Shown: positions 35,594-40,097 of the stretch, piece by piece
Layout of the letters: each line of letters opens with the position of its first letter
How positions within the stretch are numbered: the stretch's first letter is position 1
Source: Limimaricola pyoseonensis
GTDB lineage: Bacteria; Pseudomonadota; Alphaproteobacteria; Rhodobacterales; Rhodobacteraceae
Assembly: GCF_900102015.1 (NCBI RefSeq)
Contig: NZ_FNAT01000001.1
Span: 186,001-250,000 of the forward strand
Direction of reading: 5' to 3'
Length of the DNA: 64,000 bases
Notes under the pieces: generated by a model
Databases searched by the model: none
Told to the model about the DNA's origin: nothing
The model's input: only the letters and a program-made list of their open reading frames with translations
Program-made: the position numbers and the translations under genes

Positions 35594-36790
35594 TCAGGCC
35601 GCCCGTCCGGCCGACTTGGCGGCCGCGAAGCGCAGCAGCCGCGACAGCGCTTCCTCGAAGCGATCATCCTCCACAGTCAGCGCCACCCGGACATGGCCCG
35701 CCGCGGCGCGACCGAAGCTTTCGCCCGGCATCACGGCGATTCCCTCCTGCTCCAGCAGCGCATCCGCGAAGGCCTCGCCGCTGAGCCCCGTCGCGCGGAT
35801 GTCGAGCATCGCGTACATCGCGCCCTGCATCGGCAGCGCCCGCACCACCTCCTGCTCTGCGACCAGACGCGCCGCGATCTCGCGCCGCCGCCGGAAGGGC
35901 GCGGCGACCTTCGCCTCGAACTCCGCGCCGAGCTGCAGCGCGTGCAGCCCCGCATCCTGCACGAAGCCCGGGATGCCATAGGTCGTGTGCGTGGCGAGGT
36001 TCTCCATCGCCGCGATCACGTCCTCGGGCCCCGCGACCCAGCCGACGCGGCTGCCGGTCATCGCGTGGCTCTTCGACAGCGAGCCGACCACCAGCGTCCG
36101 ATCGGCGAGGCCGGGCAGGGCGCGCGGGCTCAGATGCGCACCGTCCCAGAGCTGGGTGTCGTAGACCTCGTCCGAGATCAGCCACAGGCCGTGCTCGGCG
36201 CAGAGAGCGCCCAGCGCCTCCAGCGCCTCGCGCGGGTAGACCGCGCCGGTCGGGTTGTTTGGCGTGTTGATCAGCAGCGAGCGCACCCGCCCGTCGAAGC
36301 CCGCGATCTCGGCCTCGATATCTTCGGTCCGCGGCAGGAAGCCGTCCTCGGCCCGCGCCGCCACCGGCAGCGCCACCGCGCCGACCGCGCGCACCGTGCC
36401 GGGATAGGTGGCGTAATAGGGGTCGATATAGAGCGCGCCGTCGCCCTCGTCGCAGGTGGCGTGGTGGGCGGCGAAGAGGCCGGCCTGCCCGCCGGGCACC
36501 ACCAGCACGTTCTCGGGGCCGGTCGGGACGCCTGTGCGTTCGGTCAGCCGCCTTGCAATCTCGGCGCGCAGCTCGGGCGTGCCGGGCACCGCGGCATAGC
36601 CGGTGTGGCCGCCGCGCGCGGCGCGGTCCATCGCCTGCAGGATCTCCGGGTCGGTGCGGATGTCGTGCTCGCCGATGGTCAGCTCGATGACGGGGCGGCC
36701 GGCGGCGACCATGCGCCGGGCCTTGCGGAACAGGTCCCAGCCATCCGGGCCGCCCGCGGTGATATGCGTGATGCGATGCGAAAGTGTCAT
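35594..36790 (-). CDS. PLP-dependent aminotransferase, class I/II
   Basis: This 398-residue fold-type I aminotransferase has Lys240 (SLSKSHAMTGSRVGW) as the PLP Schiff-base residue. NTPNNPTG at 175-182 and SDEVYD at 206-211 supply further cofactor contacts, and an Arg-containing C-terminal segment (GRAAAGHVRVAL) is present. It resembles AspC-like aspartate/aromatic aminotransferases; the amino donor is not predictable. The ATG at 36790 is preferred to a TTG 36 bases upstream. It is divergent from the cysS leader region; minus-strand TTGACA (36821-36826) could be its -35. Confidence 0.88.
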   Translation of the reverse strand: MTLSHRITHITAGGPDGWDLFRKARRMVAAGRPVIELTIGEHDIRTDPEILQAMDRAARGGHTGYAAVPGTPELRAEIARRLTERTGVPTGPENVLVVPGGQAGLFAAHHATCDEGDGALYIDPYYATYPGTVRAVGAVALPVAARAEDGFLPRTEDIEAEIAGFDGRVRSLLINTPNNPTGAVYPREALEALGALCAEHGLWLISDEVYDTQLWDGAHLSPRALPGLADRTLVVGSLSKSHAMTGSRVGWVAGPEDVIAAMENLATHTTYGIPGFVQDAGLHALQLGAEFEAKVAAPFRRRREIAARLVAEQEVVRALPMQGAMYAMLDIRATGLSGEAFADALLEQEGIAVMPGESFGRAAAGHVRVALTVEDDRFEEALSRLLRFAAAKSAGRAA

Positions 36791-36883
36791 GCGCGGCAGC
36801 TGGCCGGGCCGGGGCGCGCTTGTCAATCGCGGCGGGTGTCGAAACGCTGGACGGGCCGGACGGCGGCTGCTAAGGCCGGTGGC

Positions 36884-36925
36884 ATGACGAGCAACTGCAT
36901 CATCGGCTGCATCATTTCCTGCTGA
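36884..36925 (+). CDS. Cysteine-rich leader peptide upstream of cysS
   Basis: A 13-codon ORF encodes [13 protein letters not shown], with three TGC cysteine codons, the last one directly before the stop. AAGG lies eight bases upstream of the ATG. A candidate promoter (TTGTCA at 36820-36825, 17-base spacer, poor -10) would start RNA near 36855. The stop is 80 bases before cysS. Between them GCGGGC can pair with GCCCGC, and a GGGCC...CTC segment can alternatively pair with the GAGGCCC around the cysS ribosome binding site. This fits attenuation by cysteinyl-tRNA supply, but no experiment or comparison supports it here. Confidence 0.6.
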
Positions 36926-37005
36926 CTTGCGTCACGCGGGCCGCTCTCTCGTTTCCCGATGAAACACAGGATCAGCCCGCCGGCGACACCCGCTTGCGAG
37001 GCCCC

Positions 37006-38472
37006 ATGACGACCGACCGGACGACGATCCGCCTGCACGACACCAAGACCCGCCGCAAGGTGGAGTTCGCGCCGATCGACCCCGAGAATGTCAGGCTCTA
37101 TGTCTGCGGCCCCACGGTCTACGACCGGGCGCATCTGGGCAACGCGCGGCCCGTGCTGGTCTTCGACCTGCTCTACCGGCTGCTGCGCGAGGTCTTCGGG
37201 CGTGAGCACGTGACCTACGCGCGCAACTTCACCGACGTCGACGACAAGATCAACGCCCGCGCCCGCGAGACCGGCCGCCCGATCCGCGACATCACCGAAG
37301 AGACCGTGCTCTGGTACCACCAGGACATGGACGCGCTCGGCGCCCTGCGCCCCGATCACGAACCGCGCGCCACCGACTACATCGGCCAGATGGTGGCCAT
37401 GATCGAGCGGCTGCTGCTGTCGGGCCATGCCTATGTCGCCGAGGGGCACGTGCTGTTCTCGGTCGCGAGCTACGAAACCTACGGCGCGCTGTCGGGCCGC
37501 AGCGTCGAGGACATGATCGCCGGCGCCCGGGTCGAGGTCGCGCCCTACAAGCGCGACCCGATGGACTTCGTGCTGTGGAAACCCTCGACCGAGGACGAGC
37601 CGGGCTGGGACGGCCCGGTCTTCGAGGGCGAGCCGGTCGGCCGCGGCCGCCCGGGCTGGCACATAGAGTGCTCGGCCATGTCGTACCAGCTGTTCGGCGA
37701 GAGCTTCGACATCCACGGCGGCGGCATCGACCTGCAGTTCCCGCACCACGAGAACGAGATCGCGCAATCGGCCTGCGCCCACCCGTCGGGCGACTTCGCG
37801 CGGATCTGGATGCACAACGAGATGCTGCAGGTCGAGGGCAAGAAGATGTCCAAGTCCCTGGGCAACTTCTTCACCGTGCGCGACCTGCTCGACCAAGGCG
37901 TCGCGGGCGAAGTGGTGCGCCTCGTCATGCTGGGCACGCATTACCGCAAGCCGATGGACTGGACCGCCGAGAAACGGGCCGAGGCCGAGGCGACGCTGGC
38001 CAAGTGGTACGGGCTGCTGCACGCGCATGGCTTCACCGCCAAGATGGTGCGCGACCTGAAGGCGGCGGGCGACTGGGCGATGGATGCCGAATTCCTCGGC
38101 GTGCTCGCCAACGACCTCAACACCCCCGGCGCGATCGCCCGGATGCACGTGCTGTCGAACGCCAAGACCCCGGCCAAGCTGGTGCCATTCGCGGCAGCGC
38201 TGGAGTTGATGGGGCTGATCGAGGACTGGGACGCGCTGGCCGATCTCGCCGGGGCCGATGCCGGGCCCGAGATCGCGCCCGAGATCGACGCCGCGGTGAC
38301 CGCGCTCCTGACCCGCCGCGCCGAGGCGCGCGCCGCGAAGGACTGGGCCGAGGCCGACCGCATCCGCGACATCCTCAACGCCGCCGGCGTGCAGGTGACC
38401 GACATGGGCGGGCAGGCGAGCTGGCAGCCCGGGCCGGGCTTCGACCCCGCCAAGCTGGAGGCCGCGAAATGA
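37006..38472 (+). CDS. cysS: Cysteinyl-tRNA synthetase
   Basis: This 488-residue class I synthetase charges tRNA-Cys. The zinc/cysteine site begins at Cys34 ([10 protein letters not shown]), the HIGH-type motif is HLGN at 43-46, further metal ligands lie in GWHIECSAM and the HHENE segment, and KMSKS is at 280-284. The C-terminal DALR-like domain is present. The ATG at 37006 follows GAGG; an ATG 12 bases earlier is less likely. Its stop overlaps cimA (ATGA). A short Cys-codon ORF upstream may regulate it. Confidence 0.97.
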
Positions 38473-40097
38473 GCGACCGGCTCTACATCTACGACACCAC
38501 GCTGCGCGACGGGCAGCAGACGCAGGGCGTGCAGTTCTCGACCCGCGAGAAGGTGCAGATCGCGCAGGCGCTCGACGCGCTGGGCGTCGACCACATCGAG
38601 GGCGGCTGGCCCGGCGCCAACCCGACCGACAGCGAGTTCTTCGAAACCGCGCCCGAAACCCGCGCCACGCTCACCGCCTTCGGCATGACCAAGCGGGCCG
38701 GGCGCTCGGCCGAGAACGACGAGGTGCTGGCCGCGGTGCTGAACGCCGGCACGCCCTCGGTCTGCATCGTCGGCAAGACGCACGACTTCCACGTCACCAC
38801 CGCGCTCGGCATCACGCTCGAGGAGAACCTCGACAACATCGGCGCCTCGATCCGCCACATCGTGGCGCAGGGCCGCGAGGCGCTGTTCGACGCCGAGCAT
38901 TTCTTCGACGGCTGGAAGGCGAACCCCGACTACGCGCTGGCCGCGATCCGTGCCGCGCACGAGGCCGGGGCGCGTTGGATCGTGCTCTGCGACACCAATG
39001 GCGGCTCGATGCCCGAGGAGATCGGCGCCATCACCCGCGCGGTGATCGCGGCCGGCATCCCCGGAGAGCGGCTCGGCATTCATTGCCACGACGACACCGG
39101 GCAGGCCGTGGCCTGTTCGCTCGCCGCCGTAGAGGCGGGCGCGCGGCAGATCCAGGGCACGCTGAACGGGCTTGGCGAGCGCTGCGGCAACGCCAACCTC
39201 ACCACGCTGATCCCGACGCTGCTCCTGAAGGAGCCCTACGCCTCGACGCTCGAGACCGGCGTGACGCTCGACGCGCTGAAGGGGCTGCGCCGCGCCTCGC
39301 GGCTGCTCGACGATATCCTCAACCGCGTGCCCTCGAAGCAGGCGCCCTATGTCGGTGCCTCGGCCTTCGCCCACAAGGCGGGACTGCACGCCTCGGCCAT
39401 CGCCAAGGACCCCTCGACCTATGAGCATGTCGAGCCGGGCCTGGTCGGCAACACCCGCATCGTGCCGATGTCGAACCAGGCCGGGCAGTCGAACCTGCGC
39501 GAGCGGCTGATGCGCGCCGGCATCGAGGTCGAGAAGGGCGCCCCGGCGCTCGCCCGCATTCTCGAGCGGATAAAGGAGCAGGAATCGCGCGGCTACTCCT
39601 ACGACACCGCGCAGGCGAGCTTCGAGCTGCTGGCGCTGGACGAGCTGGGCCGCCTGCCGGACTTCTTCGAGATCAAGCGCTACCGCGTCACCGTCGAGCG
39701 CCGCCGCAACAAGCGCGGCCGGATGGTCTCGCTCTCCGAGGCCGTGGTCGTGGTGAAGATCGGCGGCGAGAAGGTGATGAGCGTCTCCGAGAGCGTGGGC
39801 CCCGACGGGTCGGACCGTGGCCCCGTCAACGCGCTCAGCCGGGCGCTGGTCAAGGATCTCGGGCCCTATCAGGGCTTCATCGAGGACGTGCACCTCGTCG
39901 ACTTCAAGGTGCGCATCACCGATGGTGGCACCGACGCCGTCACCCGCGTCATCATCGACAGCGAGGACGGGCAGGGCAACCGCTGGTCCACCGTCGGCGT
40001 CTCGGCCAACATCGTCGATGCGAGCTTCGACGCGCTGGTCGACGCGATCCTGTGGAAGCTGGTGCGCGAGAAGGCCGAACCGGTCGCGGCCCGCTGA
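38469..40097 (+). CDS. cimA: Citramalate synthase
   Basis: This 542-residue enzyme condenses pyruvate and acetyl-CoA to citramalate, a threonine-independent entry to isoleucine synthesis. The HMGL-like TIM barrel starts with [13 protein letters not shown] (residues 9-21), and metal-binding His residues lie in [13 protein letters not shown]-terminal LeuA-type allosteric domain (about 400-535) suggests feedback control by isoleucine. Family signals such as [10 protein letters not shown] and the [10 protein letters not shown] segment favour CimA over 2-isopropylmalate synthase. It overlaps cysS by ATGA, so both are likely to respond together to any control upstream of cysS. Confidence 0.9.

Follow-up and report, generated by a model that had tools for sequence, protein, structure and literature searches.

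A putative ribosome-mediated attenuator with cysteine and isoleucine codons before cysS and cimA in Rhodobacterales and Hyphomicrobiales

Here, we propose that a short ORF in front of cysS in Limimaricola pyoseonensis belongs to the leader of a cysS-cimA operon, and that this leader is a ribosome-mediated attenuator sensing both cysteine and isoleucine, a reading to which we assign a probability of roughly 60%. The DNA analysed was a window of 64,000 nucleotides from this genome, and the features of the leader and of the two genes are listed in Table 1. As originally predicted, there is a 13-codon ORF with three Cys codons 80 nt before the cysS ATG (37006), confirmed by the sequence and by the TIGR00435 match of cysS, and cimA does overlap cysS, its start at 38469 lying inside the end of cysS so that start and stop share the letters ATGA. 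The Cys codons are the 5th, 9th and 13th of the leader, which therefore has no tandem Cys pair, and 4 of its 13 residues are Ile, a point that had gone unremarked. On the other side of the leader promoter, and adjoining it, lies a divergent gene for a PLP-dependent aminotransferase (35594-36790, minus strand), for which none of the best 25 of 69 NCBIfam matches reached its cut-off.

Table 1. Coordinates of the predicted leader features and of the genes downstream (positions in the window)
Feature	Position	Strand	Remark
Probable -35 box, CTGGAC	36847..36852	+	138-locus profile, aligned on the leader's ATG
Probable -10 box, TAAGGC	36871..36876	+	Same 138-locus profile; predicted start at or beside 36884
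Leader ORF	36884..36925	+	3 Cys and 4 Ile codons among 13 residues; probably leaderless
Arm 0, ORF start	36886..36892	+	Pairs with segment D; weak in the window (GAGC:GCUC)
Arm 1, last codons and stop, CCTGCTGAC	36918..36926	+	Pairs with arm 2
Arm 2, GTCACGCGGGC	36931..36941	+	Pairs with arm 1 or arm 3
Segment D, pyrimidine-rich, GCTCTCTCGTTTCCC in the window	36943..36957	+	3' strand of helix 0:D
Arm 3, GCCCGC	36975..36980	+	Alternative partner of arm 2
Shine-Dalgarno-like GAGG of cysS	36998..37001	+	Sequence
cysS, cysteinyl-tRNA synthetase	37006..38472	+	TIGR00435, 428.9 bits (cut-off 340)
cimA, citramalate synthase, isoleucine synthesis	38469..40097	+	TIGR00977, 582.9 bits (cut-off 450)

An element of this kind is already in print. 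The uORFC-8-2 motif (PMC8632094, 2021) was described, in the accessible part of that paper, from 145 examples found exclusively before cysS in Rhodobacterales, having a uORF with a conserved AUG and two tandem Cys codons (highly conserved, though not obligatory), two prominent stems and a 3' U run, and ribosome-mediated attenuation via an intrinsic terminator was proposed for it. The window element likewise lies before the cysS of a Rhodobacterales genome (its nearest named relatives are Rhodobacteraceae) and has a short uORF with a conserved AUG and Cys codons. As these Cys codons are not in tandem, we class it as a diverged member of the motif; stems and a U-rich stretch are seen over the family, as detailed below, and are less evident in the window. 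The original prediction knew of no description in this group, and in this it was mistaken. Its central idea, attenuation of cysS through a Cys-bearing leader, is upheld by conservation, by covariation and by that prior proposal, while the mechanism it had in mind, in which the cysS start is freed, is not (see below). The published description, in the same accessible portion, has Cys codons only; it is silent about Ile codons and about cimA, and equally about leaderless initiation and the downstream pairing segment that we call arm 3 (PMC8632094). In the literature searched we found no further paper that names uORFC-8-2, nor, with most subscription journals outside the search, any description of a dual Cys/Ile leader or of a cysS-cimA operon. 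The kind of switch is therefore already known, and our comparison suggests that dual Cys/Ile sensing and a range that includes Hyphomicrobiales are what can be added to the published description.

Across the family, a short Cys-bearing leader ORF precedes cysS at 138 of 153 loci. Of 149 family genomes searched, 144 had a cysS match, and 130 of these entered the main set, namely the best-scoring ones except G056 and G114. The rest of the set was 23 of 24 named-record loci that were taken for Rhodobacteraceae (2 of the 23 are titled merely Alphaproteobacteria, and L084, with a divergent cysS, was excluded). Species may overlap between the two sources; the 138 aligned rows are all distinct. L162, corrected by hand, is counted among the 138 although its Cys codons come early in the ORF, and L206 was dropped. 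Tandem Cys codons are present in 84 of the 138 leaders. Chance does not explain the leader ORF, since 79 of 152 upstream regions contain an ATG ORF of 12-15 codons with at least three Cys, where dinucleotide shuffles average 0.3 and the reverse strand has 0, in keeping with the earlier claim that so many Cys codons would be improbable at this place.

Eleven of the 14 family genomes omitted from the main set were inspected later (G036, G118 and G072 were unusable), and gave five leaders by the filter (G114, G061, G078, G147 and G098), two by eye (G056 and G131) and, in G033, G136, G066 and G090, no leader by the filter. G033, G136 and G090 have a distant cysS (49-52% identity) with AT-rich sequence upstream, linked cimA and no leader. 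A second, divergent cysS (51% identity) stands alongside the usual copy in G056, G083 and G139. The short ORF MTCAPIACRA of G759, enclosed by a long open frame ahead of cysS, was left out of the counts. A search of the window's own genome for a second copy of the element gave one weak match (L216; 20 bits, E 0.028), which sits where an unrelated open frame ends and was judged to be due to chance.

Isoleucine outnumbers cysteine in the 138 leaders (506 vs 378 residues), and this, together with the way in which leaders with at least two Ile codons track linked cimA, suggests a dual Cys/Ile attenuator. In the 132 leaders of 12-15 codons, positions -3 to -8 form a conserved core of these two residues, with 397 Ile (50%) and 240 Cys (30%) among 792 codons. 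Codon -4 is Cys in 91 leaders, Ile in 36 and something else in 5, so that Ile accounts for 36 of the 41 non-Cys cases. Both spellings of Ile are used at -7 (ATT 53, ATC 36) and at -8 (ATT 26, ATC 51), which would be expected were the amino acid itself important, and the presence of ATT at -3 in 119 of the 132 indicates that the nucleotide letters matter there as well.

Could the leader instead be the Cys-only attenuator that has been published, with the Ile codons as weakly structured filler between the pairing arms? Such an attenuator is what was proposed in the accessible text of PMC8632094, and the near-constant ATT at -3 is an RNA-level and not an amino-acid-level constraint, as this account would have it. 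However, filler would not be almost purely Ile, with Phe, Tyr, Leu and Val rare in the 138 leaders, and the use of both ATT and ATC at -7 and -8 also speaks against it. So does the leader of G014 (locus L203), MNAPNRIIGIIIGG, which contains five Ile and no Cys, lies about 134 nt before the cysS match, has the same structural setting as the other leaders and is accompanied by linked cimA. We consider the Cys-only reading unlikely, the more so in view of the genomes in which cimA is not linked to cysS.

Of the 130 family genomes, 120 were scored as having cimA linked to cysS; 112 of the 120 have a leader and 109 a leader with at least two Ile codons. The eight without a leader by the filter include L178, with too little upstream sequence, and L203, whose Ile-only leader was missed by the Cys filter. 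Once five further linked genomes are included (G056, G033, G136, G066 and G090, of which only G056 adds a leader of this type), at least two Ile codons are found in 110 of 125 genomes with linked cimA vs 0 of 12 assessable genomes without it (Fisher 3e-10 by genomes and 4e-8 with the 12 reduced to their 9 genera, or 4e-11 and 8e-9 without the five, kinship being ignored throughout). The 15 linked loci that have no such leader mean that linked cimA is not sufficient.

The 12 genomes (9 genera) derive from the 17 of 395 family genomes, at a completeness of at least 95%, that were found to be cimA-less (the three best candidates being scored in most genomes). The addition of G045, where cimA is far from cysS, made 18, of which 16 gave a cysS (G570 and G760 had no match) and four were set aside for contig ends (G114, G550, G102 and G675, all with ordinary Ile/Cys leaders). 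Of the 10 genomes among the 130 that were not scored as linked, G105, G045, G011 and G047 enter the 12, and six in which cysS or cimA meets a contig end were set aside (G060, G022, G133, G030, G068 and G102); five of these six have leaders with 2-4 Ile codons and G030 has none. cimA genes apart from cysS were sought in the 130 family genomes only; in G045 and G072, where cimA stands away from the usual cysS, no Cys/Ile leader was found before cimA.

Nine of the 12 genomes without linked cimA have no leader at all. Many cimA-less loci look rearranged, and so the leader may have been lost as a by-product of rearrangement of the locus, which the Cys-only account can accommodate; G045 and G072, with their displaced cimA, gave no leader either. 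The telling cases are the other three genomes, from two genera, in which cimA is unlinked and the leader is Ile-poor: G105 and G797 both have MDWICCLCRA, with one Ile, and G725 has MTKQPASAQSFCSRR, with one Cys and no Ile. Co-control of cimA is plausible and, on this comparison, central, Ile codons going with linked cimA.

The leader ORF is probably leaderless, to judge from the promoter profile of the 138 loci aligned on the ATG of the leader. This profile has a TTG-like box at -36 to -34 (54%, 81% and 53% per position) and a -10 region in which -12 is T or A in 94% of loci and -11 is A in 63%. Position -1 is C in 87%, and nothing like the purine run of a Shine-Dalgarno site precedes the ATG. 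Taken together, the promoter layout and the lack of a Shine-Dalgarno signal point to the A of the ATG as the probable transcription start. The AAGG to which the original prediction had assigned the role of the ORF's own ribosome-binding site falls within the probable -10 box.

Downstream of the start, helices 0:D, 1:2 and 2:3 are supported by comparison of the loci, with 1:2 and 2:3 being mutually exclusive because arm 2 is common to both. In a partner-swap test with wide segments over the 138 loci, z was -13.4 for 0:D, -10.6 for 1:2 and -4.1 for 2:3, the last becoming -8.5 with the arms alone (123 loci); among the 78 loci below 65% identity the values were -10.4, -8.3 and -6.0, and none of 1000 permutations was as low. 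For helices 1:2 and 2:3, the number of paired cells and the covariation score are also above those of 500 shuffles and of slid controls. The counts of double changes are weaker evidence: for doubly changed pairs, 1:2 was matched by 34 of the 500 shuffles and its slid versions were equal in doubly changed cells, and 2:3 was matched by its slid versions in doubly changed pairs, but not in doubly changed cells (110 vs at most 81). Arms 2 and 3 include a G-C to C-G exchange (columns 53/148; 46 and 38 sequences), and covariation thus backs the originally predicted pairing of GCGGGC with GCCCGC. Alignment across relatives, which had been suggested as a check, accordingly bears out the ORF and the covarying helices; it does not bear out the last Cys codon, which had been counted as part of the sensor. 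This codon is TGC in 60 of the 138 leaders, CGC in 39 and GGC in 17, a variation to be expected of a codon that belongs to pairing arm 1.

Segment D presumably corresponds to the U run of the terminator that was proposed in print. Over 127 loci this tract is 53% U and 83% pyrimidine, interrupted by C, and the first 60 nt of cysS are 14% U. The window itself has a short helix 0:D, and the fold of its leader does not surpass that of shuffled sequence (z -0.45). Rfam 15 has no family that reaches its gathering score here, and relaxing E up to 10 gave one weak match, on the other strand. L141, L145 and L191 have an additional hairpin-like insertion between the leader stop and arm 2, as if the 1:2 loop tolerated insertions.

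How might such a leader work? We suppose that transcription would start at the A of the leader ATG and that the leader peptide would be translated without a Shine-Dalgarno sequence. With Cys-tRNA and Ile-tRNA plentiful, the ribosome would complete the leader and depart, helix 0:D would fold around 1:2, and this structure followed by the U-rich tract would stop expression, most simply by transcription termination as envisaged for uORFC-8-2. With charged tRNA-Cys or tRNA-Ile in short supply, the ribosome would stall on the Cys or Ile codons near the end of the leader and cover arms 0 and 1, so that RNA polymerase would read on and arm 2 would pair with arm 3. Because the U-rich tract comes before helix 2:3, a classic antiterminator role is impossible for this helix. 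The Cys codons would report the supply of the cysS product and the Ile codons that of the cimA pathway, and one leader would in this way serve two genes.

Helix 2:3 would be given a role by translational attenuation, in which the competing helices would expose or hide the ribosome-binding site of cysS and nothing would terminate in the leader. Arm 3 does compete weakly with the sequence before cysS (helix 3:4, z -3.2 with separate arms; a first value of -6.8 came from segments that overlap in many loci and was discarded), and the modelled openness of the cysS site over the 138 loci is 0.41 when the ribosome is stalled and slightly lower, 0.36, when it is at the stop (p 0.005). However, openness is 0.39 in the ribosome-free state, from which the stalled state does not differ significantly (p 0.23), it stays at 0.17 in all three ribosome states in the window, and the pairing of segment D with the cysS start (D:4) is without covariation (partner-swap z +0.9). 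We therefore rejected the idea that the switch works by opening the cysS site, the effect being weak over the family and absent in the window, and we regard translational attenuation as doubtful. The same results lend no support to two earlier proposals, that GGGCC...CTC pairs with the GAGGCCC at the cysS start and that stalling frees this start.

A second promoter near cysS is quite unlikely to account, in place of RNA pairing, for a large part of what is conserved beyond the ORF, for although 91 of 138 loci have a TGNTA or TGNCA box immediately ahead of arm 3, and 11 of 14 loci with no detected leader have a TGNTA at most 95 nt before cysS (both raw counts), the box is absent in the window and arms 2 and 3 covary, the G-C to C-G exchange included. 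A second promoter and the pairing of arms 2 and 3 may both be true. In many relatives, the alignment A1 has at columns 121-142, before arm 3, a TTTCCA-like block and then a TGNTA-like box; the pattern of this possible promoter has 15 matches in the window's own genome vs 11 for a reversed control, which is uninformative.

The dual Cys/Ile attenuator, which remains our preferred reading, has candidates beyond the order in which the motif was described. We searched with a model, R1, built from family leaders alone: 106 of the 138 passed a filter (for length and sequence ends, with 21 odd loci listed by hand), and 17 of the 106 were omitted from the alignment (A2) without a stated rule, leaving 89. 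Before cysS, R1 matched Devosia (E 2.5e-10), Ensifer (E 3.8e-5) and six Rhizobium/Mesorhizobium loci (E 3e-4 to 0.016), all of these E-values being rough; we take these and related matched genera to be Hyphomicrobiales. R1-matched leaders such as MKTVICIICRKIIR have the promoter layout seen in the family, and five Hyphomicrobiales leaders, when folded, gave an outer helix and a stop-codon hairpin alike. Conversely, a model built on 11 Hyphomicrobiales loci (R2) found, before cysS, the family genomes G055 and G399, the Bradyrhizobium-like G507 and Stappia (E-values again rough), as well as three genomes of another family (G269, G372 and G458). On this sequence comparison, the element is also present in Hyphomicrobiales, contrary to the published restriction to Rhodobacterales.

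Class-wide searches at E up to 0.01 gave R1 matches in 14 of 190 genomes, five of them in front of cysS (in the window, in two family members, and in L219 and L221, which belong to other families), and R2 matches in 8 of 385 genomes, six of them before cysS; the remaining matches had no cysS in the fetched stretch and were judged to be due to chance. At the R1 match in L219, a Cys-bearing ORF was sought and not found. In 11 of 12 named genomes, cimA follows on the same strand at a distance of 0.1-3.2 kb (assuming the same contig), and the 2.5-3.2 kb between cysS and cimA in Rhizobium, Ensifer and Mesorhizobium makes co-transcription uncertain there. Several other alphaproteobacterial loci have cimA near cysS and no leader that we could detect. 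In Hyphomonas, an Ile-free, Cys-rich ORF, MFDVRFALCPACCCCR, precedes cysS and the best cimA match has 31% identity, a putative likeness to the family leaders.

That a single leaderless attenuator reads the unrelated amino acids Cys (for CysS) and Ile (for CimA), keeping Ile only while the two genes are together, and does so in Rhodobacterales and Hyphomicrobiales alike, is in our estimation slightly favoured. In enterobacterial ilv and thr operons, too, a single leader contains codons for two or more amino acids; there the amino acids come from connected pathways, whereas Cys (charging) and Ile (synthesis) in the cysS-cimA leader are unrelated. The polycysteine ORFs of mycobacteria reportedly control sulfur genes. 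They are short, leaderless, Cys-responsive attenuators with contiguous Cys codons (accessible text of PMC9031893, on Canestrari et al. 2020), and the window leader, as predicted, would resemble them in being leaderless, short and Cys-coded; they belong to another phylum. A further parallel is trpL of the alphaproteobacterium Sinorhizobium meliloti, a leaderless attenuator uORF with ribosome-profiling support, which is a different element, being a Trp attenuator of trpE (accessible text of PMC10117765). The words "cysS" and "cysteine" are absent from the main text of that ribosome-profiling paper (PMC10117765).

If two unrelated amino acids are indeed read, one short leader would tie together two genes with different needs. 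Dual sensing, if true, may help to explain why cysS and cimA are neighbours in many alphaproteobacteria. The range of the element would also be widened to rhizobia, including Ensifer and Rhizobium leguminosarum, which are relatives of the ribosome-profiled S. meliloti.
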